From Membranipora membranacea (taxonomy: Eukaryota; Bryozoa; Gymnolaemata; Cheilostomatida; Membraniporidae): 64,000 nucleotides of DNA. Of this stretch, positions 600 through 61,610 are shown piece after piece. Location: positions 15,562,001 through 15,626,000 of the forward strand of contig OU612073.1 of the NCBI GenBank assembly GCA_914767715.1, written 5' to 3'. Under the pieces are notes generated by a model. The model worked only from the letters and a program-made list of their open reading frames with translations, ran no database searches and was not told the DNA's origin. The position numbers and the translations under genes were made by a program. Position 1 is the first letter of the stretch. Every line of letters begins with the position of its first letter.

Positions 600-1138
600 A
601 TAAGTTGGGGAAATTATGTGACAAAAAGATGCCATGCAAACTGAAAAGTCTAATCTACAAAACATCAATATGACCAACCCTTCTCTATGGCAACGAAACA
701 TGGCCAATAACGGGTCATCTGTCAGATAAGATGGCCTCATGCGAAATGCGCATGGTCCGGTACTGTCTTGGGATCAGCCTGGAGGAACATAGGAGGAACG
801 AAGATATTTTACAAGAAGCAAAAGTGGTGCCAATTAAAGACCTGATGAGAAGAAAGAGAATGCAGTGGTTTGGACATGTTCAAAGACGAGATAGTCAGGA
901 AGACATCAGAAAAGTATGTGAGATGGAGATAGATGGCAATAGACCTAGAGGCCGCCCTAAGCAGAGATGGAGTGATACAATAAATGCGGACCTCAGATGG
1001 CTGGATCTTGATAGCAGCGATGTGGAATACCGGAGCAGATGGAGAAGTCTGGTTGAGCTTGGTATCAAGCAAAAACCCGCAACCCGTACAGACAAAGGCG
1101 GTGAAAGGTGAGAAAGGTGAGAATAAGTTGGGGAAATT
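600..1138 (+). mobile_element. 5'-truncated non-LTR retrotransposon 3' end with 16-bp target-site duplication
   Basis: Bases 616-1122 encode the C-terminal end of a LINE reverse transcriptase protein: a LLYGNETW block, then MRRKRMQWFGHVQRRD, and GRPKQRWSDTINADL, the usual tail of RTE/Jockey-type ORF2 proteins. One in-frame stop interrupts the start (TSI-stop-PTLLYG). The same 16 bases, ATAAGTTGGGGAAATT, flank it at 600-615 and 1123-1138, which is a target-site duplication. The 3' end is a short GGTGA-rich repetitive tail rather than poly-A. This is a dead, 5'-truncated insertion of about 507 bp. Confidence 0.85.
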
Positions 1139-1901
1139 CCTCACCTTATTTTATCTTTTGATATGTTCTAACTTCCATTTAAAGTGAGTTTTTGAGTTCA
1201 CCCATTTTGATTTTTGTAACAGGGAGGAGGGAGGGAATTTTCCAAAGTTGGTATATCACTTAGAATTTCAGATTGAAAGGAAGGAGAATAGAAACTCCCG
1301 GTTGTATAGCCTTATGACTTTGAGCTAATCTACTTCTTATTGGTCAGTAGAATGGAATTCCAGGGTGAGCTGCAAAACCTTTTCCAAAGTTATTATTAAT
1401 TTCCGGTTTCGATTGAGCAAGACGTGAAAAAAATTCTCTCTGTTCAAAATTCAAAATTTAGCTGGTGAAATCTAACACTGTGGTGGCTGGAAACTGTGGA
1501 GAGGGACATCTGAGTCATTGGTTTGACTCCTTGATTTGAAACTTGGCTTTCTTTGGAAGAGAATTGGATTCCCAGCCCAGGCTCCGCTGGGTAAAATTTT
1601 CCCGCCACTTACTGGAAACGCTAAAGCATTTCTGTTCATAGTGATGGTTGGATCCTTACACAACATCACCAGGGAGGACCACCAGAACAGAAACATACCA
1701 CCAAAGCTTTTTGGGCGTAATGGTAAGAATCTACTCTCATGTGCCATTGTTCAACAGCAGGTCATACACACCATTTCATTGACAAGAAAATACGAGGTGA
1801 TAGGAACACTTGGAAAAATATGTAGTAGGCAATCCTTGCTCAAGCCCATCAGTCATAACCAGGCCATAGCCATTTCCCTGCTTGTGGTGATTCGACCTGG
1901 A

Positions 1902-1925
1902 GATGTGGAACGAAACCCTGGACCA
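1902..1925 (+). other. 2A-like ribosome-skipping motif in the LINE leader
   Basis: The codons read DVERNPGP, preceded by a hydrophobic/polar stretch (AIAISLLVVIRPG). This matches the consensus D(V/I)ExNPGP of 2A oligopeptides, where translation skips the Gly-Pro bond. Such motifs are known near the N-terminus of CR1/L2-type LINE proteins from sea urchins, amphioxus and molluscs. Here it lies upstream of the endonuclease. The match is seen directly; activity is inferred. Confidence 0.8.
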
Positions 1926-3014
1926 GGTATAAGATTCCCATGTGGGATATCTAACAAAGCTGTCATGTCAAACCAGAAAGCCTAGCCTTGATAGTGAAGA
2001 CCCAAACCCCATAGCCCAGTCTTCGCCCTTACAGAAGAAGGAACATCATCACCGACTTAACAGTCCTATCAAAGTTGTCAACTTGAACATTCAGAGCATC
2101 AACAACAAAAAAGCCGAAATCCTTCTGATGCTGGAGAGAGACGAACCTGACATAATTTGTAGAACAGAAACATGGCTCAAACGGGAAGTACGGAATGTGG
2201 AGATATTCCCATCTTCGTACACCATGTAAAGAAGAGATCGTGCTGATGGGTATGGCGGTGTGCTGCTCGCCATCAAAACTGACTACATATCCAAACTTTA
2301 CCCCACCAAACCCTGACAAAGACATCGAAGCTGTCCTCGCAAAGATTGCGCTCACAAACGATACAGAGCTCTTTATCAGTGCCGTCTATCTCCCACCAAG
2401 TACAGATGTCCTCTATTCTGAGAAGATCACCAACTTTCTGCTCAGTGTCATCAAGAAACACCCTAAGGCAGTACACTGGATCCTGGGGGATTTCAACTTG
2501 CCTGATATAGACTGGCAGACCAGGTCAATAGAAGGTCATCAGTATGCTTAAGATGTAAATCAAACTTTTCTTGATTTTTGTTTTCACAGCAGACTAGAAC
2601 AGGTTGTCACTGAAACAACTCGGGGTGACAATATACTGGACCTTCATTTCACAAACCGCCCTTCTCTTGTCACCATTTGCAAGATTTGGCCAGGACTGAG
2701 TGGCCATCATGCTGTTTACATAGAAGCCTGCGTGAGACCCAAGAAAGTCAAACCGATACCTAGAAAGATTCACTTTTGGAGGAAGGCTGACATAGATCAA
2801 CCGAAAGCTACTTTTACTCTAATGGCTGAGGACTTCTACAATACATTCACCACCAACTCACCTGTTGCCAATATGTGGCATTTCCTAAAACATCGACAAC
2901 TGGACATGGAAGAAAAATGTGTACCATCAAAAATTTCATCAACAAAATACCATCAGTCCTGGGTGACTAAGAAAGTAAAGAGACTAAGCAAGAGGAAGAG
3001 ACGATGGTTTAGGG

Positions 3015-3398
3015 CAGAGGTGCCCAACCTTTTCATTGAGGGAGCCGCATCCACATATTGCAATGTCCCTGGAGGGCGGCAACCTTGCCATAAATCAAAC
3101 ATTCATACATGGGTGTGCAGTATTTTCATCTCTGCAGTGGGGAATTTATTTATTGGTGCTCACTCAAATGCAATGGTTGGAGAATTCCAAAATACTGTGA
3201 CTAGATATAGAGCGTTCCTTATTATTTACAAATGAGGAATGTAATAAATATAGGGGTGAAAACTGATTTCGCGACTACGCGATTTTCTCAGACGGGACGG
3301 GGGCCGCATAAAATGAGCCGGGGGGCCGCATGCGGCCCCCCAGCTCATTTTATGCGGCCCCCGCATGCGGCCCCAGGGCCACTCGTTAGGTAGCTCTG
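3015..3398 (+). mobile_element. hAT-like MITE nested in the LINE
   Basis: The element begins CAGAGGTGCCCAACC and ends with a decayed inverted copy (CGTTAGGTAGCTCTG). The LINE reading frame is continuous on either side of it (RKRRWF before, YKLTGKQ after). Flanking bases GTTTAGGG and GTTTATAT share five of eight, a decayed 8-bp target duplication. A reverse-orientation relative with an intact target duplication lies at 27441-27775. It has no coding capacity. Confidence 0.75.
3299..3362. repeat. GC-rich nested palindrome inside the MITE
   Basis: Twenty-base arms GGGGGCCGCATAAAATGAGC (3299-3318) and its exact reverse complement (3343-3362) enclose a second palindrome centred on CCGCATGCGG. The related MITE at 27441-27775 lacks this doubled structure, so it appears to be a secondary inversion of the GCGGCCCC-rich MITE end. 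Confidence 0.85.
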
Positions 3399-5215
3399 GT
3401 TTATATAAACTCACTGGGAAACAGTGTGACAAGGAGACATTTGACACCCTGAAGAAAGCGACCCGAAGAGCATGCAAGAAAGCATACAATGGCTACTTGA
3501 ACGAGATGTTCACAGGAAATGGTGGACAAAAGAGATTCTGGGGCTATATCAAGTCCAAAAAAACTGCAAACTCTGAAGCAGCACCACTCAAAGATGAAAG
3601 ACTTATCACAGTTTGCAGTAGTGAAGGAAATTCGGAGATCCTGAATAGACAGTTTACATCAGTTTTTGGACCAAAGGACTCTCACCCATGCCAAACATCA
3701 AATGGAGTTTCCCACCAATGCAGCAAACAAACTTTTCTCCAGAATGAACACAAGTGAAAGGGCCCAGACAACATCTCAGCAAAGCTGTTGAAAACTCTTG
3801 CTAATGAGCTGTCCCCTGTACTGGCTTTTCTCTTTCAAGCCACGCTTGCCCAATGAGAAATCCCCTCAGACTGGACTCATGCCAAAGTCACCCCTATCTA
3901 CAAGAAAGGAGACAGATCACTACCTGAAGACTACAGACCCGTATCACTGAAATCCATCCTGTGCAAAACTGCCGAGCATGTTATCACAAGCCAGATCCGA
4001 CGTCATCTTGATCAGTGCAACGCTCTCACTGACGCTCAGCACGTATTTAGGGAGAATATTCACCACAAATGACCTAAACAGTACTCTTGAGGAAAATTGG
4101 CAGACAGACCTAGTCCTACTTGATTTGTCAAAAGCTTACCAAACTCTCAGTTACTTGAGAAGCTCAAGTTCTATGGTATTGATAACAAAATCATACAGTG
4201 GATTTCAGCATTCTTGGGTAACCGAATTCAAGAAGTACTGGTCGAAGGAAAGAGCTCAACAAACTCCGAAGTCACTTCGGGTGTTCCATAAGGAAGCGTA
4301 TTTGGGCCCCAGCTCTTCATATTATTTATTGATGACATGCCGAACTACGTCACCAATGGCTCTACTGTGCGGCTATTCGCAGACGATGCTGTGTTATATA
4401 AGAGAATTACCACAGTAAGTGTTACCTACTCCGAGTTTCCCGAAAGCGAAAGCAGATAGCTGCAGATTACTACATCAGAGGCCATGACCTGGAGCTCGTT
4501 GAATCTGCTAAATACCTTGGCGTCACCTTCACGAAGATATGACCTGGAAACAGCATGTAAAATCTGTTGCTGGAAAGGCAAACAACACCCTGTCCTTTCT
4601 CCAGCGAAATATCTCAGACTTGCCACAGAACCTCACAGCAATTAGCTATAAAACACACATACGCCCACAGGTCGAGTACTGCAGTTCTATCTGGGACCCG
4701 ATCGTCAAAACCAGAACTAGAAAACAAAACAACTAGAATCCATCCAAAATCGGGCAGCTTGCTTCACCTGTAGTAACTATTCCTGATACAGCAGTGTATC
4801 AGCCATGAAACATCAGCTCGGGTGGGAGAGCCTACAGGCCAGAAGAAAGATATGCAAAGTTGTACTGCTATACAAGATAATGAACCATCATATCGACATA
4901 TGACTGGTATTACGACCATCTGCTGTCAATCCGGAGAAGCTAACTCAGCTCCACTGCAGAACACTGGCCTTTCAGAGATCATATGTGCCAGACACCGTAG
5001 TGCTATGGAACAGCCTCCCTACCAGTCTGACATCTGTGGTCACCGTCATTTAGATCAGGTGCAACTGGCGCACTGGTCGGCGAATTCTAAGACAGATCTA
5101 TGCTCTTCTCTCTATTCCAGCACCAAGCACCCAGCACCTGTATTATGATGTATTACCCAGACGCACAAGCACAGACGCACAGATGAGTGTAGATGACACC
5201 ACAGATGTCTTTTGC

Positions 5216-14878: not shown

Positions 14879-17800
14879 TCAGTGCCTCGTTGCTAATGCT
14901 CCATATAGTGTCTTGTCTAGGCTAGATAATGAGTCTGTGGTAATTTCTTCTTTCTCTGTTGTCTGAACTGTCGTGTCTTCATAAGGTAGCCATAATGTCC
15001 GTTTGAAAACAAGCATTAACAGCATGAGAAGAAAACTTAAAATAGTGAGACCAGCGGAAAAGAAAAATAGTGTGTTTGCTGGTAGGATGAGTAGGAGTTT
15101 AGATGCTACTGGTGGAGCAATCAGAGATCCGATTCCTCCACATGTTTTGGAGATTGCATACATCAAATTGTGAGATCTTGTTCCGTTGAGATGCTTAATT
15201 AGGTTAGGCAAATTAGAGAGTACGACCCCATACATACCCCCATGGAAACATGCTAACGCTACCATAATGTATACATTGTTAACCAGACCCATTGCGCAAG
15301 CACTGCAAGTCATCGAAATCAAGCATATTAGATGAATCAGATATTTGTTTGTGTTGATTTTGGCAGTGATAAGTGACTTCACAACTGAGAGCACCAGCAG
15401 TCCAACCCCAAACAAAGTCAAGGCAGTTCCTGCCAACAATCTATCTTCATAAACATCAACTATATAGCTATATAGATAGACCTCCAGTAGAATTATTCCT
15501 CCATTCCAAAAGATGGCGTTAAGGAAATAAATGATTAAAACTGGGCGAGTGACTGATTTAAATAACTTCCATGAAGAGGTCTCTCTCTCCTCATCAACAT
15601 TTTCATAACTTTTCTCCTCGTTATCAGTTTTATAGATAAGGGCTCCGAGAATATTGAAAGAAAGTATCCCACCAAGGATAATCATCACATCTTTGTACTC
15701 ATATGACTAAAATAAAACGAAAGTATGAATCAAAATACGGTAATTATAACAACTCAAGAGGCCTGTAGAATGCATGTATGTGCATCCACCCATGTTGTGA
15801 TAGCTTTGATCGTACCATCAATTTAGTTGGTATGTTAACATCCACCGATACCATAAATAAAGTAGGCTTTAAATTAACTAGTTGATAAAGTTAGATCCTG
15901 TTTGCCTGAGTTTCGGAGTTGCTCATCCTCCTCTGATAAACTACTGTAGGCTTTTTGCCTGCAACTTGTGTGGCAGTGCAGAGAAGTAATTCCAAATGCA
16001 AACTAAATTTGATCCATATATCTTTGCTAACCTCTGCAGTTCCCCCAAACCATCATTAGTAGATATACAAAGCTTGTCCAAAGGTAAAAGGAAACAATGC
16101 AAATGACAAAAGTTGCTTATTTATTAACAGTCTTGTGTGATTCTGAAATTAAACAATAGAGGAGGTTGTCTGGATCAAACGCTTGTTTTTCAACGTTTCG
16201 CCTTAAATTACTGTGAGAAACATGGTCTATTATCATGTGTGCTGTGGAATTTCTTGGGTAACATGCTGGGTTGATGTATGTGCAGTTGAGGTTTTACAAA
16301 TATTTACTGTACTGCGAAGCCTGGTATGATAGTGGGCTGTGGAATTTCTTTTAGAACTATTCTGGATTAATAAATTGACTTGTGGCTATGACATTTTTAA
16401 AAAACATGCTGAGTCAGATCCGAAGCCAGCATAGCGTTCGAGATGGCGATCGCGGTATTAGGCGGTAATTGAGGAGTGGTGGGAAGCTAGGAAACTCTGT
16501 TTTTTTGCAATTTATCACTTATCTAACTTTAGCACCTGTGAGCAACACTTTCGCCTCATTTCACAGAGTTCTAACCCTGTTTTATCAGTTTCCTCTCATA
16601 TCCTAAAACCTACAACTATGTTGTTATATCAATGAAATAACTAAAATGTGCAGACGTATTAATGGTTGTCTTCTCCCATGTCTGGACATTCTCAGACACG
16701 GCACTTTTCGGATAATAAACTTCAGCTTTTTTGTGCATTCATTTACCCAGAAAAGTTCTCAAAAAGATTTCACAACACAATCATACCAGGCTCCTCAATT
16801 TAGTAAATCTGTAAAAATAACCTCAGAAACTGTATTTGCATTTACCCAGCATGTTACCTGAGAAATTCCACAGCACACTATCATACTAGGCTCTGCAGTA
16901 CAGTAAAACTGTGAAAAACCTCAACTTTACATGCATTCACCCAGCATGTTAACCAAGAAATTCCACAGCACATTATCATAACAGCGGTTGCAGCAAGCGG
17001 GTCAATTGTCCACTATCATACCAGGCTTCGCAGAACAGTAAATATTTGTAAAACCTCAACTGCACATACATCAACCCAGCATGTTACCCAAGAAATTCCA
17101 CAGCACACATCATTATAGACCATGTTTCTCACAGTAATTTAAGGCGAAACGTTGAAAAACCAGTGTTTTATCCGGAAACCTCTACAGCTTTTGGGGTGTG
17201 GGTGGCCCCCTCTATTACTACCAACAAGTAAACTGCAATGGGCAGACAAACGTTGACAAGTTTGTTCTGGAATATGTGATGAACAACCGATATAGGACAT
17301 ATCAAATCAAATCTAGCTGACATTTTGATAGTTCAACAAGTTACCTTTAGCAATGTCTGCATGACGAACGGAAACATAAGAATTCCGAAGGCGGTGCCAG
17401 CTCCCTGTATTGTGAAAGCCAGGTAGAGATGTTCATCAAAGTATTTTGGTATCACTGATATTCCCGATATGTGCAGATTACATAAAGATGCAGCTGTAAA
17501 TATATTTTGTACATTACGAATATGATTATGAATGTGTCCTGGCGCTACTGTGAATAAATAGATAATTTTGGATCATGATCAATACGATGTACAACCATTA
17601 CAAAAATAACACAAATTTACATGACCTGCAACTCAATTTTGACCTGTTAACACAATGTCTTCCTTTATATTATTATTATTTCAGTTATAATTCTCATCTA
17701 AACATTTGTTACAACAAAGATTCATCAAAAAAGGATTCTGGAAAATCTGAAGAATGTTTAGGAAAATAGTGAATAAAGAGTGTGTCGGGCTAAATTCCCA

Positions 17801-20800
17801 TTTCGGCCAATCGTAGTACAGGTATCCCTATCCCCAACAAATAATTGCCATTTTTTGGATGATTATTATCTGCCATATACCCCTGAAACACTGAAACATT
17901 TGATTACTCTATAATACTTACATGTTAATACACTTAGACTAAGGACCACATGCCAAACTTTTGAGGCATAGCCTGTCAGCACGATCCCCAAAACTGCGGT
18001 CAACACAGAAATAGTTACAGTCCTCTGTAGTCCTAAGTGGTGCACAATCAACACAGATACTGGGGCTAAAATAGTTAACAAACCATTATTACACATTGGT
18101 TGTTGGCAATTTTTTGTAATTCTGTTTTCACAAAATTTTAATGAGCGCAGTGTACACACCAAAAAAGGATCTACATAAGAAGTACCAAAATTTAAGGTCA
18201 CCAGTATTATTAGCTCGTTGAACTGCACAAAAAACAACCATCAACATTCTTTATTATCAATTCAAGAAGTAGTCACATTGCATTAATCAAACTCAGTTAT
18301 TTTGCTAACCTTTCGTATTACATTCACATGACTTCCCATCATGGGTTACACGAATGTGTGCAGACGAGCTTTGCTTTCCTATATGTACTATCATAAACAG
18401 CTGTTTTAAATGTGGTTATTTTCCTGATATTTGGAAGTGTGCAGAGATAGTACCAATCGAAAAAAAGAAGTCTGTTGATACTGAATCAGATTTTAGACCT
18501 ATTTCCTTGTTATGGCACCTGGGCAAAATTATTGAAAAAGCTGTTATGCATTTTTATGTTCAGTTTGTTTTACCAACCATTGATGGAAACCAGTATGCGT
18601 ATCAGAAAGGCCGAGGTACAGTAGATGCAATCATAGCTGCTATCGATAATTGGACCCAATTATTAGATGAACCAAAGTCAAAATATTTGACAGTCGCTTT
18701 CCTTGACATGTCAAAGGCTTTTGACAAGATGGACAGAGGAAAACTGATAGATATGCTAACGAGGAAGGGTATCAACTATAATCTAGTGCAAATCATCAAC
18801 AGCTTCCTCACACACCGATACCAATCAGTACGCATCGGCAACAATACCAGCCGAACATTACCAGTTATAAATGGAACACCCCAGGGAACATTGCTAGGTC
18901 CAGTCTTCTGGCTTTTATATGTGGACAGCCTTGAAGTTGAATGTGACATAATAAAATACGCAGATGACCTGACATTAACAGGCCTGCCCGCTAAAACACT
19001 TAACCAACAACTGGACCTCCAAACCTCTCTAGACACAGTATCGACATGGTGCGATGAGTATAATATGGTGGCTAATGCAAAAAAGTCATCTATTATGCAT
19101 CTGACTAACAAACATGCTCGATACCAATTCCAACCACCAACTCTGAAGCTGAATGGAGAACAAATACCACCGACAACTAAGACTAGATTTCTAGGAATCA
19201 CTATCGATCAGCATCTGTCTTTCGAAGACCATGTAGACTCGATCCTGAAGAACGTCAGACCGCTAACCTATACCCTTCTTAACCTCAAACGCTCTGGCGT
19301 ACCTCAGCGGTTACTGACGAGGTTCTACCTCACATGTATACGGCCTCGTATGACATATGGAAGTGTAGCCTGGTTCTGCATGATGACCGACCAACAGAAA
19401 AAACGAGTAATCCAGCTGGAAAAACTCTCACTGAAAATTATAGCCCCAGGCTGTGACGAGTATAGTGAAAGGATAGCCCTGCTAAACATCATACCACTAG
19501 ACGAATATATTGACTCTATGTGCCATCAACACATCGACAAGATCAAGACACCTGGGCACTGCCTGCATCATTTACTACCTCAACCGAGTGCTCGCAGACC
19601 TAGTAGACATACAACGCGCCTCAACACCAGCTCACGAACTGAATTGAGAGGCAACACTTTACTCATGTGTTACAGCAATGCCGGATGTGTAAATTATAAA
19701 GTCTAAGGATTAATTTTTTTCTGTTTTTTATTTTCATGCCCAGGTTGCCTTCCTTACTTATATTGTGATGAAACCTCTAAAGGTCGCCTCTAATTTTTAG
19801 AAGATGATCATTGGTTCAGTAATAAAGATTATATATACTGTAAGTATAACGTTAGATTGTGTGTGTGTGTGTTGTGCCCCTTTAGGGTAGCTCGCATGGA
19901 TGGCTCTCTGGTGGCGCCAAAAAAACACAGCTTCTAGAATGATGTAGTCAGATGTTGTTACTTGTTTTGGACCACGCCAGTTATTTAAGGTTCTGTTGTA
20001 TTTGTGTTGCATTGAAAAAAACTTTATGTACATGATATGAGAGACTTTAGGAGAGATTTGCTTTCTCCAATCCCTGTCCTGGTTGATAAATGACCAATTT
20101 TGATGTTGCACATGTGCTCCACTTTGGCGCCAAGTGATAGTGATAGTGTATTGCTAATCGTCCTATTAATCACAATGTGTCAAACATCGATCATCTTAAC
20201 CAACAAATTACTGTATATAATATCAGACATTGACCATTATGTTAAGACTAACTAGGGACGTCACTGGGAGTTACACAACCTAACTACACTGAACGATAGG
20301 TCCTGGGTTGAGCCCCACCAGGTGCACTGTTTGTCCGGGAATGACTAACCGATAATGATATGCAATGTTGCCAGGACCTTCAACCATAAAGTTGGCGATC
20401 ATCCAAGAAAATAATAATGATAATCTGACTTTATCATCCTAAAATCAGTGTTTTCTGACACCACCTGAGAGCCATTCTTGCGAGGTGACTTAAAAGCGCA
20501 CCACACACACACACAATCTATCGTTTTAGTTACAGTGATACCAAGGTTGGCAATATGAATGCAGCAGGAAAAGAGTTTGGTTAATGCAATGTGACTACTA
20601 ATGTTAATGGTAGTGTTCTGTGAAGTTCAACGAGCTAAAATACTAGTGACCTTTCATTTTGGTCTTTCTTAGGTAGATTCTTATTTGCTGTGTACACTAC
20701 GTTCATCACAATTCACCGTCAAATCACCTCTAACCCTCACCCTGGTGAACAAATAGTGAGGTGTAATCTCAGTCCACCCCTAACCACTGCAGCTCTTTTG

Positions 20801-29769: not shown

Positions 29770-32700
29770 TTAGATGCCAGTTTCAATATTTAAATCAGAA
29801 CTTTGAACACCCTCAGTAATCTTGTCTTCACCTTGTGTTGTCTGAACTGTTGTGACTTCATAAGGGAGCCATAAGGTCCTTTTAAAAACAAGCATTAAAA
29901 ACATGAGGAGAAAACTAAAAGCAGTGAGACCAGCGGAAAAGTAAAAGAGTGAGTTTGCTGGTAGGACCAGAAGTAGTTTAGATGCTATTGGTGGAGCCAT
30001 CAGAGATCCAATTCCTCCACATGTCTTTGAAATTGCATACATCATATTGTGCAATCTTGTTCCGTTGAGATGCTTAACTAGGTTAGGCAAATTAGAGAGT
30101 ACAACCCCGTACATACCCCCATGGAAGCATGTTAATACGACCATAATGTACACATTGTTAACCAAACCCATTGCGCAAGCGCTGCATGTCATTGAAATCA
30201 AGCATATTAGATGAATCAAATATTTGTTTGTGCTGATTCTTGCAGTAATAAATGACTTCACAACTGACAGCACTAACTGTCCAACTCCAAACAATGTCAG
30301 AGCAGTTCCTGCCAACAAGGGATCTTCATAAACATCTGTTATGTAACTATATAGATAGACCTCCAGTAAAATGACTCCACCATTCCAAAAGATGGCGTTT
30401 AGGAAATAAATAATTAAAAATGGGCGAGTGACGGATTTAAATGACTCCCAAGTAGAGGTCTTTATATGCCCATCAACATTTCCTGGGCTTTTCTCCTTGT
30501 TATAACTGTTATAAAAAAGGGCTCCGAGAATATTGAAAGAAAGTATCCCACCAAGAATGATCATCACATCTTTGTACTTAAATGACTAAAATAAAATAAT
30601 AATAATATTAATCAAAATACAGATATCATAACACTTTGAGAAATCTATGAGATGTATGTAGCTGCACTTCCGAATAGTATTATTACCATTATTACCATCA
30701 ACTCTATCTGTATATATACCTATAAACTAGGTACGCTTTGCAATGATTAGTAGATAAAGAAAGATCCCTTTGCCTATGTTTCTGAGTTGTTCCCCCTCCT
30801 CTGACAAATTGCAGGCGCTGAGCCTGCAACTTGTGCACCAGCTTTGGTGCAGGGGAAGCAATTCTATTTATCTTTGCTAACCTTTGCAATTCCCTCAAAC
30901 ATGAAAGTTAGGTACTGGCTGTTAAGCAGATATACAAAGCTTGCTAAAGCAAAAAACAAACGTTGTGTAATTCTGAAATTAAACAGCTAAACTGTAATGT
31001 TTATTTGTCATGGACTTTGATCGGCACTAATAAATTATATATGTAATGGGCAACCAACTGTTGACCAGTTTATATGGGCCAAAGAAGTGAAATCTAGCAG
31101 ATTTATTTGTTACCTTCAGCAGTGTCTGCATGACGAACGGAAACATAAGAATTCCGAAGGCGGTGCCAGTTCCCTGTATTGTGAAAGCCAGGTAGAGATG
31201 TTCATCAAAGTATTTTGGTATCACTGATATTCCCGATATGTGCAGGTTACATAAAGATGCAGCTGCAAATATATAATGTAAATTATTATTATTGATGTGT
31301 CCTAGCGCTACTGTGAATATATCCATGATTTTGGATCACCAATACAATGTACAGTCACAATGTCACCTGTACATTTGTCAAATTTAGGACAGTCACCAAT
31401 ATAACATGAATTTACATGACCTGCAACGCCATATTAGCCTGTAAACAAAATGTGATCATTTACAGCCATCAGACTTATATTTTTCGGATAGCAACAATCT
31501 TCAATATTCATCTGAATGTTTCATGTTCCATATTCAACTCGATTTTAATGAAGCCTATTTCTATTGGAAGTTTTAATTTAGTTACAAAAAAATTTGTCAG
31601 AGTCAGATGTGTCACTTTGAGGATGTGCAAACTGACAAAGAATTTCGACAATCTTCCCTGTGATGGTAAGATTCAATTATAGGTACATAACATGAGCTCA
31701 GGGCTAGCCGCTCATTACGTAGTTATAATTCTCACCCTATCATATGGTTACAAAAAAAAAGATTCATCAAACACAAATAAAAAAAAAAATGTTGGTTAGG
31801 CTAAAACTCCCCAGTCTAGGCAATCGCATTACTGGGTATCGTCTCAAGACTTCTGATAGCAATCATCATAATACTCCCCCCCCCCTCCTTCCTCCACTCT
31901 TCATCCCCCATAAAATAATTGCCATGTGTTGGAACCAGGATGATCATTATCTGTAAAATACACTTGAAACACTGAAACATTCTCTCATTTACTCACATGT
32001 TAATACGCTTAGACTGAGGACCACATGCCAAACTTTCGAGGCATAGCCTGTGAGCACGATCCCCATAACTGCAGTCATCACAGAAATAGTTACAGTCCTC
32101 TCTAGTCCTAGGCGGCGCACAATCAACACAGATACTGGGGCTAAAATAGTTAACAAACCATTATTACACATTGGTCATCATTGGCAATTTTTTGTTATTC
32201 TGCTTTACAAAAAAATTATATTGAGCGGAGTGTACACACCAAATAAGGATCTACATAAAAAAGACCAAATACACCAGTACGCCAGTAGAGAATCACCAGT
32301 ATTTGGGGTCGTAGATCATAGAACTACCATTAACATTCTTTGTGTTCACTTCAAGAAGTAATCACATTCCTTGAATCAACTCCTTTCCTGCTGCATTTAT
32401 ATTGCCAACCTTTGTATTTCATTTTTTATAACTTTATTGGCATCATTTGTATTGGTTTTTTGAAATGCTTAATTTAAAATAGATCCCTCTCTAGTACCAA
32501 AGCAATTATTATAAATATAACGATTGGTTGTGTGTGTCTGTTGTAAGCTTTTTAGGTAGCTCGCATGAAGTCAAGTCAGATTTTGTTACTTGTTTTGAGA
32601 TCATGTCAGGTAGTTGAGGCTCTGTTGTATTTGTGTTGCATACAACAAACAGATAAATTGTTCAACAATTGAGTGGGGGGGGGGGTCGTTGCTTCATCTA

Positions 32701-41500: not shown

Positions 41501-43092
41501 ATTCATAGTAGCACCAGGACACATTCATATTCATAATTTACATTATATATTTACAGCTGCATCTTTATGTAATCTGCACATATCGGGAATATCAGTGATA
41601 CCAAAATACTTTGATGAACATCTCTACCTGGCGTTCACAATACAAGGAGCAGGAAGTGCCTTCGGAACTCTTATGTTTCCTTTTGTCATACAGACACTAC
41701 TGAAGGTAACTTGTGGAACTTGTATAAAAGTATGACATAATCAGCTAAATTTGACTTGATTTGTCCCATATCGGTTGTTTATCACATGTTCCAGAACAAA
41801 CTTGATAATGGTTGTCTCCCCAGCACAGTTTAACTGGGTAATTTGAGGGTAAATCAGGAATGGTTGTCTGCTTTGTTTCCTTTTTAGCTTGGAATAAACT
41901 CTGTATATCTGCTAACCAGTCAGTATCTGACTTTCATGGTTTGAGGGAAATGCAATAGTTAGCAAAGATAAATAGATCAAACTTTGTTTGCATTTGGAAT
42001 TGTTCCCCCTGCATACTGCTGTTGCACAGGTTGCAGGCAAAAAGCATGCGGTTTATCAGAGGAGAAAAAGAACTCTGAAATCCAGGAGAACTCAATCTAA
42101 CTTTATCAACTGATGGTTGCTATGCATACCCAATTTACAGTGTCATTGACCATTCAGGTATCTGACAGTAAGAACAAAGCTATAAAAACATGCGTGGTTG
42201 CAACTACCTGGATGTCAAAGACCTCTGTAGTTGTTATAATTACTGTATTTTGATTCATATATCTATCTTATTTTAGTCGCTTGAGTACAAAGATGTGATG
42301 ATCATCCTTGGTGGGATACTTTCTTTCAATATTCTCGGAGCCCTTTTTTATAAGACTAATAGCAAGGAGAAAAACTTAGAAGATGTTCATGGGGAGAGAA
42401 GGGCCTCATCTTGGGAGTCATTTAAATCACTCGCTCGTCCAGTTTTAATCATTTATTTCCTAAACACTATCATCTGGAATGGAGGAATTATTCTACTGGA
42501 GGTCTATCTATATAGTTATATAACAGATGTATATGAAGATCCCTTGTTGGCAGGAACTGCTCTGACACTGTTTGGAGTTGGACAGTTAGTGCTGTCAGTC
42601 GTGAAGTCATTTATTACTGCCAGAATCAACACAAACAAATATCTGATTCATCTAATATGCTTGATTTCAATGACATGCAGTGCTTGCGCAATGGGTCTGG
42701 TTAAAAACGTATATATTATGGTAGCGTTAGCATGTTTCTATGGGGGTATGTTCGGGGTTATACACTCTAATTTGCCTAACATAGTTAAGCATCTCAACGG
42801 AACAAGATCTCACAATATGATGTATGCAATTTCGCAAACATGTGGTGGAGTTGGATCTCTGATGGCTCCACCAATAGCATCTCAACTACTACTGGTCCTA
42901 CCAGCGAACACACTATTTTTCTTTTCTGCTGGTCTCACTGCTTTATGTTTTCTACTCATGTTGTTGATGCTTGTCTTTAAAAGGACCTTATGGCATCCTT
43001 ATGAAGACACAAACGTTCAAACAGATTATGGAGAAAAAAAGACAGCTGGGGACGTGCAAAATTCTAATTTAAATGCGGAAAATGTCAAATAA
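38513..43092 (+). CDS. SLC16/monocarboxylate-transporter-like protein, paralogue C (4 exons, 429 aa)
   Basis: Exons: 38513-38693, 39647-39790, 41557-41705 and 42277-43092, with donors GTAAGT, GTGAGT and GTAACT and pyrimidine-rich acceptors; phases 1, 1, 0 keep the frame open to TAA. The protein runs from MESRYSWLILVIVTITNV through TGWIGSAAAAVF (helix 2), VLIVRHLGLQRTVT (loop 2-3), PKYFDEHLYLAFTIQG (about residues 124-139, helix 4-5) and a central loop (about 185-205) to six C-terminal helices. The DGGWGW signature of helix 1 is absent. The predicted length is typical for the family (about 430-500 aa). It is on plus while A and B are on minus. Intron 1 holds a SINE, a palindrome and a 22-bp tandem repeat. 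Confidence 0.88.
39190..39305 (-). repeat. tRNA-derived SINE
   Basis: On minus the sequence reads GGTGGCACAGGGTACAGGTAG (A-box region), an anticodon-arm-like CCTTCC and GTCCTGGGTTTGAATCC (B box/T arm), in the order of a tRNA gene. It extends past the tRNA-like part without a clean acceptor stem, so it is SINE-derived and not a functional tRNA. It lies in intron 1 of transporter C. Confidence 0.6.
39337..39367. repeat. 31-bp perfect palindrome of the AAGGAGTT family
   Basis: Fifteen-base arms ATCAAGGAGTTAGAG and CTCTAACTCCTTGAT flank one central T. It lies 32 bp from the SINE in intron 1 of transporter C. Confidence 0.9.
39466..39553 (+). repeat. 22-bp tandem repeat, four copies
   Basis: The unit is TTGGACAGGGTTATATGTTGGG with slight changes (ATGGAC, TATAAG). 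It ends about 90 bp before exon 2 of transporter C. Confidence 0.9.
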
Positions 43093-47059: not shown

Positions 47060-49100
47060 TTTAGGTTAAAACTACAGAGGAATGATTCAGCTTTTTTTAA
47101 ATTAAATGATATTTATAGGCAGGTGGGAGATGATTAGGATAGTATAATCCACACCATGACTCCAACAACTTGTAATTTTAATCTATGAATGACATTGATA
47201 GTAACTTTAAGCGTCCACCCAAATTATGAAATAATATATTTTGGTTAAATAATATAATTGCGTTTAAATCATGTTGTTTTGGCTCTGCTGGCTTTCCATG
47301 GGTGAAGTGTACTATAATAACATGGTGTTGTTTTGCTGATGGTGGCTGTAATAATGGAATGACATGTTTTTTTTATAATAATAATATTGTATTTAAATGA
47401 TGTGGGTTCTGGTGTGTTCGATGGGTACAGTGTTTTGACTGTAAATGAAGCAGCCAGCTAATAGAGAAATAACTCTTCTGGTGTCGGCACACCGACTGAG
47501 GCACACTTACTCGGGCGCACCGACTTGGGCGCACCGACTTCGGCACACTGACTGGGCCACACTTACTGGGGCACACTGACTTGGGCACACTGACTGAGCC
47601 ACATTTACTGGGGCACACTGACTGGGGCACACTGACTGAGCCACACTTACTGGGGCACACTGACTGGGGCACACTGACTGGGCCACACTTACTGGGGCAC
47701 ACTGACTTGGGCACACTGACTGAGCCACATTTACTGGGGCACACTGACTGGGGCACACTGACTGAGCCACACTTACTGGGGCACACTGACTGGGGCACAC
47801 TGACTGAGCCACACTTACTGGGGCACACTGACTGGGGCACACTGACTGAGCCACACTTACTAGGGCACACTGACTGGGGAACACTGACTGGGGCACACTG
47901 ACTGAGCCACACTTACTGGGGAACACCTGTTTCTCTTTGTAGTTTTTTACTCAAAACGACTGAGGTCAATTTTCCTTTAGATTTTATCATGATTTAGTAA
48001 CAATAGTTAGTAATAATTTTGTAGATGAAGCATGTCATTTTAATTGGCTTCAATCAGGTTAATAATTTGTTGGAATGTGTCATGTACATATCCCAACATA
48101 ATCCTGCATTCCAAAACAGTGTTAAAAATCTAAATAGAATTGTCTCAGTGTGTCCAAATTGCTTGCCCCAGCAAAGATATAGAAAAGGTTAGTTTTGAAC
48201 TTTTCCCTTGCATGCTTGGCATTGGCAATTCTGATAGTGACAAAAAACTATAGCTCTGGTAGCTTTCCATGTCTAAAGTGGCGTGAAGGAAAATTCACCA
48301 TCCAAAATGCTGGTCCAATTGTGTGCGAGGCTTATGCAAGAATGAAGTGATAGGTAAACTAGAATACGATATAGAAGATATATCAATATGGCGCGTTTTT
48401 ATGTCAATCAAAGACGAGGCTCTTCCATTGCATATCAGCTGAAAAATCATCACTCATCTGGTATTCTTTTCATTCTGAACATCCATATATAGCATTGAAT
48501 ATTGGTACGCATAACTTTCAGTGAACATTGTCAAGGATAAACACAAGCAAATGATATAACAATTAACAGGCTGCCCAATTTTAAAATATCCTACCTCAAT
48601 GTCGAAACTAGAACCAAAAATATGTGGAATAAGCTTCGGATTAAGCTAAGGTGGGCTGATCTGGAGTCAGCAGAAAACATTAACATGACCACAGAAGTCA
48701 AAGATCCACATCTACACCCCCTGGCTCAGACTATCATACCACAAGTTTGTCATCCCATTTGCTATGTTCTTCTACATTTATCAGACCTAAAAGTGGATAA
48801 CCTGAATTTACATACCTAGAAAATTTAACGGGTATTCAGCCAGGATTTAATTAATCACTATTTTTATATTCAATATTCATCAAAATTTTATAAATCCCCA
48901 CACATTCACTTCAATTCTGTGAAAGTCATGTTAATTCATTGCAATGATTATTAGTGTGTAATAGTTGTTCTTTATACAAAAATTGCAATCTTTAGCATCT
49001 TTGCCATCTTTCGAAAAAGCCAACCTCTTGTGTAGGAGTTGTTCAAACAACATCAATGTGGACACAACTCATAACTAGGAACAACTATCATGATTTATTA
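47060..49100. repeat. Duplicated segment, uninterrupted copy
   Basis: Bases about 47060-47990 match 54565-55195 (for example AAAACTACAGAGGAATGATTC against AAAACTACAGAGGGATGATTC). Bases about 48010-49100 match 59935-60915 (CATATCCCAACATAATCCTG in both). The order and orientation are conserved, so the second copy is the same segment split by insertions. No coding region is recognised. Confidence 0.85.
47484..47925. repeat. 14-bp/42-bp minisatellite
   Basis: The basic 14-bp unit GGGGCACACTGACT alternates with GAGCCACACTTACT in 42-bp higher-order units, about ten of them. Because 42 is a multiple of three, all frames stay open, giving false proteins on both strands. The other copy of the segment, near 55065-55125, has only about three degenerate units, so the array expanded after duplication. 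Confidence 0.95.
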
Positions 49101-51829: not shown

Positions 51830-53673
51830 CTAGAATGCTGCAAGTTTTTGAGATTGTGCACTTGTACCGACGCAAATTGTAGCACAGGCTTGAGCGCAGG
51901 CACAGTAACCAAATCCACATACACACCCTCTGATACAGCCTGTAACACAAGCACTGTCCCTTTTTGCTATGCTGTGTTCATCTACTTTCATCATGGCTAA
52001 AAAGGAATAACATGAATTGAACAACGGGAAAACTCAACTATGATACAGCTGGGGTTTCATCAATTTATCATTTCAATTATTTCCTTTCCCTCAAGATATC
52101 AGGACTGATTATGTGTTTACCATCGATTCTGGTAAAGTAGATTCAATACCATGCACATACACATAGCTCTGCTAAGCAGCATTCAATAAAAAGAGTAACC
52201 TACTCCAAGACAGGTCTTTGGGTCTGGGATACTCTCTTTGCCTCTGGTCATGCACAAAAACAACACTCTGTTTCGATAATAAGGAGTAACCCACCTCCAT
52301 CTTGTGCCGCCGGTATTTTGACCATCCACTGGTAGCCATCAGTACAGTGTTCATGTGCTGCGGGTGAAATGAAGCTGACATCATCAATCTTCCCTGGCAG
52401 CACTTGGAATTGAATGTCCTCTTCAGAGGTCATTGTGATGTTTTGTCCGTCTTTGTCAGCGAGGAAGCTCTCCAAGCTGTACCCATCCTGAGATGTGAAC
52501 GTGGCTGGCATGACGAGACATAAACCACTATCTGGCATCTTAGAGATGTGCAGCCCCTGTCATGAAACCAAATAAAGGTGTTATAGGTGAAAATTCAAAC
52601 ATAGAACCGATTCAAATATATCATTCATTTTAATGATTTCAGGTTTTACTTGGGAGTTGTCTTTTCTTTTGACATGAGAAAGTAACACATGCTTTTTTAT
52701 ACATAATCATTTACTTTTTCTGATAGGCCAGCCTTTTGAAAGTCAGTATTGCCAAGTTCAATGCAATCCAAAAAAACTGATTAACTGTCTTCTTTCCCTT
52801 GAATAACTTTACTATGTCCATTTACACAAGTTTCTAGGGTAAATAAATTTTTATTATATTCTGCTGACCTTGTTATAATCTTGAAGGTTGAAAGAGCCGT
52901 CTTCACCCAGATACATGGCAATGTTCTCATTTCGGTTGTATGAGACCTCCTCATCATCAATTGGTTCCTGAGAGAAAAAAAACTTTCTTAAAACTGAAAC
53001 AATGCGTAGCTAAAATGTTGTAGAAAAACCTGAATGTGGTCCTGTAAGACGTAAGTAATCCTAGCATATAACTTTATGAAAGCTATCATTGGTAGAGTGG
53101 GATGTGTTTGGAAGGTGGTTGCACGTTATGAAATCCTCCTCTAATAGGGTTCAACATGAGGGCCGTGTCAAACAACGATGAATGTTTGCTGAACAATTTT
53201 TTTTGAGTACAACATAGTAAATTCCAAAAAGACCCTTTCAGTTGTGATAACAATTACCTGTTCACTGTTGACAAAGTGCACATGTTCAGTGATGTCAGAA
53301 TATGTTGCCTGTGTCTGTCTGTGACAAGCACCCGCTGAGGAGTGTAACTGGGTGTATATCAGAGTACCAACAGTGCCTGCCAGGAGGACTACCAGTATGA
53401 ATGTGCTAGCAGCCAGGAACGACCTTCCATCTGATCTATAAGTTTGCTCCATCTGCTGAAATGAAATCACGATATGATTCAGAGACATGCATATGAATAT
53501 TAATTTTTACATACAGATAGAGGATACAGATGAGGGCAAGTACTCAAAGGAGAGAAAGTATCACATTATAAAATATTTAAAACTCATACCAGCAATGAAG
53601 TGCCAAAATGGTTGTTACTCTGAAAGCATCAAATGTTTTCTGCAACTCTCACCTTGATCTTTTCTGTGTCCAT
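51830..53673 (-). CDS. BRICHOS-domain precursor with C-terminal eight-cysteine peptide (5 exons, 248 aa)
   Basis: Exons on minus: 53673-53653 (MDTEKIK), 53455-53258, 52967-52869, 52556-52295 and 51996-51830, all with GT-AG junctions and matching phases; exon 2 has a CAGCAG acceptor, so one Gln is optional. The order is that of a BRICHOS precursor: short cytosolic N-terminus, type II membrane anchor in exon 2 (FLAASTFILVVLLAGTVGTLIY), linker, BRICHOS domain in exons 3-4, then a C-terminal peptide. BRICHOS hallmarks are the Asp in LQDYNKG, a Cys 16 residues later in GLCLVMP, and a second Cys before an aromatic-Trp pair (HCTDGYQWMV). Exon 5 encodes MMKVDEHSIAKR and a 42-residue tail. BRICHOS acts as an intramolecular chaperone for an aggregation-prone C-terminal segment released by proprotein convertases. 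In annelids (arenicin, alvinellacin and related) that segment is an antimicrobial hairpin peptide. The family is well supported; an antimicrobial role is inference. Confidence 0.87.
51833..51958 (-). other. Predicted mature peptide of the BRICHOS precursor (42 aa, 8 Cys)
   Basis: It follows Lys-Arg. Cysteines are at peptide positions 4, 8, 12, 14, 19, 21, 25 and 29, i.e. C-X3-C-X3-C-X-C-X4-C-X-C-X3-C-X3-C, a mirror-symmetric array around a GFGY turn. The tail of 13 residues after the last Cys has none. Net charge is only about +1, unlike the strongly cationic annelid hairpins. Confidence 0.75.
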
Positions 53674-54233
53674 TTTTAAGGTGGTTAGTAGTAGTAGTAG
53701 TAGTTAGGCTGCCAGGACTTATTTACCACTGTATGTGAATGCTGCAGCTTTTATAGTGACAAATTTATGACATGGCTAGTATCCTAGCATCATGATTGGC
53801 TGATTTTTTAGCAGAATTGAACCAATCACCTGACAAAAGGATGCGCTCAAGGTGAAATAACAAAATAATGACTATTATTACCCAAAAAATTACAGGGTTA
53901 TGCAGTGTTTGAGTACATAGGTACCCATATTTCGTTATGTGGAGCTAGCGAATCAAAAACCGTGATTTTTTAGGTTTGATCAAACTATGCAGAGAGAAAT
54001 ATGGTGATCAACAGTGAAGTTATGAAATCTTTGAGTCTTACTTTTTTATTCCAGGCTTACATTCATCCTGCAACAAAAAATAACCAGAAGGTCCTGAATC
54101 ATATTGAGATAAAACCGTAAATAAAAAAAGTGAAGAGGTAAAATGTATCAAAAATAATATTCACATTGCTTGCCAAATGTGCCAAAATAGGAGACTTCGG
54201 AGTTTCGCGACCCATATTTGCAGAAGATATTAT

Positions 54234-60915: not shown

Positions 60916-61418
60916 GTTATAAACTAAAACATAATGGATTGAAATCTATTTGACTGGTGTGAAAAGCACTAGTTTAATTAGGCCACAGGCAATGATGGTA
61001 ACAAATAAAAAATCTCACTCAACCATTTATCATGTCATATAGCAAAGAGTATGTATATAGGTATGAGAATAACTGATACCGGAAAGCATGAATGATGTTG
61101 TGGTTTAAAACTTCCTTTCTGCTGGCTTAGGGCAAACAGGACTTCCTGTAACTTCCTATAACTAATGAACATATTACTTTGACTAAGTACATAAAACATC
61201 CAACGTTAAATGTCAAAAGACCACAAGTACAAGCCAGTATGAGGCAGTAATGGGTTACATTTAATTTTTAAATGCAATGACACAATCTCAAGAATGAGAT
61301 TAAGAGTCTATGAGATTGTGCGCATATTAACACCAAGCAATGATATTTTATAGGTCATCGACACTCACTAAATAAATAGTTTGCTAAATACTAGTGTTGT
61401 ATTCAGGGTCGAGTCAAC

Positions 61419-61610
61419 GGGATGGGTTTCGGGATGGGTTTCGGGATGGGTTTCGGGATGGGTTTCGGGATGGGTTTCGGGATGGGTTTCGGGATGGGCT
61501 TCGGGATGGGTTTCGGGATGGGTTTCGGGATGGTTTTCGGGATGGGTTTCGGGATGGGTTTCGGGATGGGTTTCGGGATGGGTTTCGGAATGGGTTTCGG
61601 AATGGGTTTC
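61419..61610 (+). repeat. 12-bp G-rich minisatellite, 16 units
   Basis: GGGATGGGTTTC repeated 16 times with few changes. The run of GGG tracts on plus has strong G-quadruplex potential. It produces long false ORFs in several frames (GFGM, GWVS and PKPI repeats). Confidence 0.95.

Follow-up and report, generated by a model that had tools for sequence, protein, structure and literature searches.

The minus strand of the Membranipora membranacea sequence studied here, a stretch of 64,000 nucleotides that we call the window, carries a complete five-exon gene (53673 to 51830) whose predicted product ends in a cysteine-rich tail. The eight cysteines of this tail stand in an exact mirror register, which is the unusual feature of the gene and was missed by the first-pass annotation of the locus. 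Judged from its sequence, the product seems to belong, as an unusual variant, to the worm defence-peptide precursors, a class already known. We think it probable, on balance, that it is a BRICHOS-assisted precursor from which a furin-like protease would release a nearly neutral 42-residue hairpin with four laddered disulfides.

The first-pass annotation had placed the gene correctly at 51830..53673 and had left its strand, which is minus, unstated. The five exons do join without a frame error, as it had claimed: all four introns are GT-AG, with phases 0, 0, 0 and 1, and the spliced coding sequence of 747 nt is an open frame of 248 amino acids. Exon 1 (53653-53673, minus strand, as are the others; 21 nt) encodes MDTEKIK and ends at the phase 0 donor AAG/gtgaga. 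Exon 2 (53258-53455; 198 nt, phase 0) covers residues 8-73, with the N-terminal stub, the hydrophobic segment and the start of the linker, and exon 3 (52869-52967; 99 nt, phase 0) covers residues 74-106, with the acidic linker and the first part of the BRICHOS-type domain, including Asp103. The rest of this domain, with Cys119 and Cys177, is encoded by exon 4 (52295-52556; 262 nt), which ends at the phase 1 donor GAG/gtgggt, and the spacer, the Lys-Arg site and the cysteine-rich peptide follow on exon 5 (51830-51996; 167 nt including the stop). At the window's own stop-triplet frequency, the chance that the 242 codons of exons 2-5 stay open is about 2e-7, a value that ignores the freedom to choose splice sites. 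The start codon lies in the context AAAATGG (A at -3, G at +4) and is preceded by an in-frame stop at 53706. A TATAAA box on the minus strand (53750..53755), situated some 80 bases before the ATG, is a core promoter candidate. If intron 4 were retained (52248-52295, minus strand), exon 4 would extend by about 15 residues to a stop and end in Glu-Cys-Cys-Phe-Cys-Ala, which might serve as a short alternative C-terminus.

The precursor begins with a short stub (residues 1-18), followed by an uncharged hydrophobic segment (residues 19-41; 53354..53422, minus strand) found by hydropathy. With Kyte-Doolittle values, its best 21 residues (20-40) have a mean hydropathy of 2.28, as expected of the N-terminal anchor or signal peptide of BRICHOS proproteins, and its sequence would suit either a signal-anchor or a long signal peptide. 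An acidic linker (residues 42-94, net charge -7) leads to the domain itself (residues 95-193, net charge -11), and then to a 13-residue spacer ending in Lys205-Arg206 (51959..51964, minus strand). This predicted proprotein convertase site is the only dibasic site of the precursor. Both the site and the tail of 42 residues with eight cysteines that follows it had been recognized previously, and the tail is the predicted mature peptide (51833..51958, minus strand). This peptide begins with Asp-Ser-Ala, and its average mass in the reduced state is calculated as 4139.8. It contains a single Arg and a single Lys, and its side-chain net charge is +1, or about +0.7 at pH 7 when the cysteines are reduced and the termini are included. 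An odd cysteine encoded by exon 2, Cys51, lies just past the membrane segment without an obvious partner and might link two precursors.

A tblastn search found no second copy of the gene in the window, which also held no Rfam family at the gathering threshold and no tRNA. No relative of the precursor was found in the protein collection searched, and even a conserved transporter exon of the window had only five relatives there, so the missing orthologue says little. That exon (14879-15706, minus strand) encodes part of an MFS transporter (PF07690, E 5.3e-18); it is the one scanned of three long, visually similar exons, which may form a local cluster of transporter paralogues, the other two being at 29770-30585 (minus strand) and 42277-43092 (plus strand). 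A long reverse transcriptase open frame was observed at 18309-19706 (plus strand; RVT_1, E 5.5e-29), and further frames near 674-5148 resembled retroelement pieces by eye; frame 674-1111, the only one of this set that was scanned, had no Pfam match. The window also contains a 441-bp tandem array (47486-47926) of a 42-bp unit composed of three 14-mers, with two frames free of stops on the minus strand and one on the plus strand, and a 12-bp minisatellite (61418-61610; 16 copies, 97% matches), one frame of which codes for Trp-Val-Ser-Gly repeats.

Comparison with annelid BRICHOS peptide precursors

The gene structure provides evidence for a BRICHOS-type precursor that is independent of any domain match. 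As described for alvinellacin, the last intron of the gene is in phase 1 and all others are in phase 0, and the introns of the capitellacin gene are placed almost identically (PMC4002450); the alvinellacin peptide is encoded on the last exon of its gene (PMC5431198). The bryozoan gene obeys the same phase rule and also has its peptide on the last exon, although it has four introns compared with five in the alvinellacin gene. Alvinellacin and capitellacin are both reported as beta-hairpins with two nested disulfides each (PMC4002450, PMC7761999), which in capitellacin, a BRICHOS peptide, are laddered as Cys5-Cys18 and Cys9-Cys14 (PMC7761999), whereas four are predicted here. Their precursors are described with a signal peptide instead of a signal-anchor-like segment, and alvinellacin is cationic whereas the peptide studied here is nearly neutral (PMC4002450).

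Membrane-anchored precursors of this kind have been reported elsewhere. Among the BRICHOS precursors of Heteromastus filiformis, 5 of 13 are given as transmembrane, a group that includes HfBRI-54 and leaves out HfBRI-75 and HfBRI-91 (PMC10745061), and the spoon-worm BRICHOS precursors are also described as transmembrane (PMC9410094). The HfBRI proteins share with ours a BRICHOS precursor, a dibasic site and a C-terminal peptide (PMC10745061). HfBRI-75 and HfBRI-91 contain 11 cysteines, and their cationic property is described as not pronounced (PMC10745061); with an odd number of cysteines and no confident structure predicted in that account, they differ from the 42-residue peptide with its eight cysteines in mirror register.

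The strongest competing explanation is that the gene encodes an ordinary annelid-type BRICHOS antimicrobial peptide, that is, a hairpin that lyses membranes as arenicin or capitellacin do, with disulfides added. We regard this as a serious possibility, with the same precursor plan, an Xaa-Lys-Arg site and a mature peptide on the last exon behind a phase-1 intron, as well as transmembrane precursors already known (PMC10745061, PMC9410094), all in its favor. According to a 2026 survey, hairpin antimicrobials have 11-25 residues and charges of 1-8 (PMC13001179). The charge of +1 still falls within this range, but at its bottom; the peptide has a single Arg and a single Lys, whereas the class is described as arginine-enriched, and a length of 42 residues lies beyond the range (PMC13001179). 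Because of this low charge and this length, we have not filed the product as an antimicrobial peptide.

Mirror register of the C-terminal cysteines

The tail has cysteines at positions 4, 8, 12, 14, 19, 21, 25 and 29 (spacing 3, 3, 1, 4, 1, 3, 3), and the nested pairs 4+29, 8+25, 12+21 and 14+19 all sum to 33. Since every pair has this same sum, all four would face each other in an antiparallel hairpin, and since the cysteines of the first strand occupy even positions only, they would lie on one face. Mirror symmetry is found in 0.00074 of all placements of eight cysteines in 42 residues, and mirror symmetry together with a single face in 0.00006 (42-mer), 0.00015 (30-mer) or 0.00021 (26-mer), probabilities that serve only as guides because the symmetry was spotted before testing. 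In such a hairpin, the other residues paired on the cystine face would be T6/T27 and R10/Q23, and the opposite face would pair V5/I28, G7/A26, I9/A24, G11/A22 and V13/A20, all small or hydrophobic residues (V, I, G, A).

A single-sequence AlphaFold2 model of the peptide (mean pLDDT 63), computed with no information on this register, placed strands at residues 2-4, 13-15, 18-20 and 29-31, all of which fit the sum of 33. The mid-arms (residues 5-12 and 21-28) were without strand in this model, for which Foldseek returned no match. With the Chou-Fasman propensity values, strand was favored over helix in the first arm (1.18 vs 0.79) and in the second (1.16 vs 1.02), and in each arm the cysteine moment was 4.0 of 4 at 180 degrees per residue, against 2.2 at 100 degrees. 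The cysteine register and the strand predictions, the latter partly from a low-confidence model, both point to a C-terminal peptide with beta-hairpin propensity.

A helical hairpin built on the alpha-hairpinin motif was also considered, in which C4-x3-C8 and C25-x3-C29 would staple two helices and the C-x-C pairs would lie near the turn. Spaced as i, i+4, i+8, the cysteines C4/C8/C12 and C21/C25/C29 would likewise line one helix face, and the second arm is Ala-rich with a helix propensity of 1.02. We nevertheless find this arrangement unlikely, as the moment at the helical angle is little more than half of that at 180 degrees, the glycines at positions 7, 11, 15 and 17 disfavour helix, C12/C14 and C19/C21 have no helix face in common, and the low-confidence AlphaFold2 model contains no helix. 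The 180-degree phase, the higher strand propensity of both arms and these four helix-breaking glycines are the reasons why a beta-hairpin is preferred.

Cysteine-rich C-terminal domains are known from chondromodulin and tenomodulin. Another analogue is hepcidin, which to our knowledge has no BRICHOS domain. Four disulfides (Cys1-8, 2-7, 3-6, 4-5) are described as nested in its beta-hairpin, the arrangement predicted here, but its Cys4-Cys5 bond deforms the turn (PMC4410394), whereas the four pairs of our peptide would keep one register. The pairs Cys6-Cys15 and Cys8-Cys13 of protegrin-1 form a CxC-x4-CxC core (PMC9100274) equivalent to C12-C21 and C14-C19. Unlike protegrin-1, which is arginine-rich with two disulfides and is described with a cathelin precursor (PMC4410394), the peptide of M. 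membranacea would have two extra rungs, four residues apart.

Identity of the middle domain

Judging by its sequence, the middle domain most likely belongs to BRICHOS, of which it would be a divergent member. The family signature is given as one Asp and two Cys (PMC6265681, PMC9627735), the Asp occurring in 97% of single BRICHOS domains (PMC9627735), and these marking residues are present as Asp103, Cys119 and Cys177. Asp103-x15-Cys119 has the Asp-to-Cys spacing of 16 that the first-pass annotation had noted; the BRICHOS region of human ITM2B also has a spacing of 16, and human proSP-C has two adjacent cysteines at 15 and 16. The same annotation had read a Cys-x4-aromatic-Trp block into the domain, which was inexact: the actual C-T-D-G-Y-Q-W is Cys-x3-Tyr-x-Trp.

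A search against the BRICHOS profile, which had been proposed as a check, gave a divided answer. The isolated domain matched, and the full-length protein of 248 residues had no Pfam match up to E 10. No Pfam match was obtained with exon 4 alone. Exons 3-4 had a single match, PF04089 (BRICHOS), at 13.9 bits (E 0.064), and a trimmed piece of 95 residues matched only PF04089, at 14.9 bits (E 0.032) over positions 8-86 of 91 in the profile. Both scores fall short of the curated 25-bit cut-off, which means that Pfam itself would make no BRICHOS call here, and the trimmed piece was picked only once the full-length scan had failed, which counts against the match. Two positive controls scored 69.7 and 64 bits. 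None of eight shuffled sequences matched PF04089, and two of the eight matched unrelated families (E 0.21 and 0.084), so that an E value of 0.03 is weak when taken alone. The match is nevertheless more telling than its database-wide E value, since PF04089 had been named before the scan.

Global alignments to the ITM2B and proSP-C domains scored better than 1000 shuffles (p 0.004 and 0.012), whereas local alignments were non-significant (p 0.32 and 0.39, 1000 shuffles). In a low-confidence AlphaFold2 model of exon 4 alone (pLDDT 56), we observed a strand, a strand with the Cys, a helix, three strands and a last helix that stops right before the second Cys. This predicted order, beta-beta(Cys)-alpha-beta-beta-beta-alpha and then Cys, is compatible with the BRICHOS description given in PMC9714404. 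A lineage-specific secreted protein resembling BRICHOS by chance would explain why the Pfam cut-off was not reached and why no local alignment was significant. We judge this quite unlikely, as the Asp, the two Cys, the spacing of 16 and a near-full-length profile match would all have to coincide, along with the helix predicted before the second Cys, the intron phases, the hydrophobic anchor and the Lys-Arg site.

Two BRICHOS proteins outside the annelid peptides are close in plan. ITM2B/Bri2 is likewise a transmembrane BRICHOS precursor with a furin site and a short C-terminal peptide, but this peptide has 23 residues and, in a model, one disulfide (PMC9714404); its sequence similarity to our precursor is weak. 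The BRICHOS-family protein OAF has a convertase site as well, and a model of its mature polypeptide shows an extended hairpin held by four nested disulfides, comparable to the one predicted here, but that polypeptide is described as highly conserved, with 70 residues and a Pfam family of its own, PF14941 (PMC9714404). Membership in OAF was rejected, the full-length protein having no match to PF14941 (Pfam up to E 10).

Support for the BRICHOS-type precursor architecture proposed by the first-pass annotation thus comes from the signature residues (one Asp, two Cys), their spacing, the sub-threshold but near-full-profile PF04089 match and the alvinellacin-like intron phases. Its suggestion of a new class was too strong, because transmembrane precursors, the Cys-rich and not markedly cationic HfBRI-75 and HfBRI-91, and the four-disulfide OAF model had already been published. 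Neither the eight cysteines nor the low charge is the novelty it had claimed, given these precedents of 11 cysteines and of four modelled nested disulfides.

Proposed maturation and role of the peptide

Building on the observed gene model, domain signature and cysteine register, we infer disulfides, fold, cleavage, chaperoning and role as follows. The proprotein would exist in a type II membrane (or signal-peptide) form, in which the acidic BRICHOS-type domain would maintain the hairpin conformation of the C-terminal tail during disulfide formation. Cleavage after Lys-Arg by a furin-like protease would release the 42-residue peptide, a putative two-stranded antiparallel beta-hairpin spanning residues 2-31 or so, with four laddered disulfides (C4-C29, C8-C25, C12-C21 and C14-C19), a tip at G15-F16-G17-Y18 and then a flexible tail of 11 residues. 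A metallothionein-like peptide, whose cysteines would bind metal and not each other, would suit the two C-x-C motifs and the eight cysteines within 26 residues (4 to 29), but it is highly improbable: the peptide is predicted to lie on the luminal side of a secretory precursor, where conditions are oxidising, and metal binding has no need of mirror symmetry.

The disulfide-laddered hairpin would most likely be secreted for host defence or signalling, and its sheet, being prone to aggregate, would depend on the BRICHOS domain. By analogy, a host-defence role is plausible because of the kinship of the precursor. More speculatively, and in our opinion somewhat doubtfully, BRICHOS may chaperone here a nearly uncharged four-rung ladder in one register that, like hepcidin, acts by binding a receptor or a metal-handling partner, or else by ordered self-assembly, and not through membrane lysis. 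If this non-lytic reading were true, BRICHOS would in addition serve as the template on which nested disulfides form. The domain has been studied as an anti-aggregation chaperone, and a client with four mirror-related disulfides would test whether it guides disulfide pairing as well. With such a peptide, the cystine-ladder hairpins would be extended to a nearly uncharged form whose four rungs share one register.
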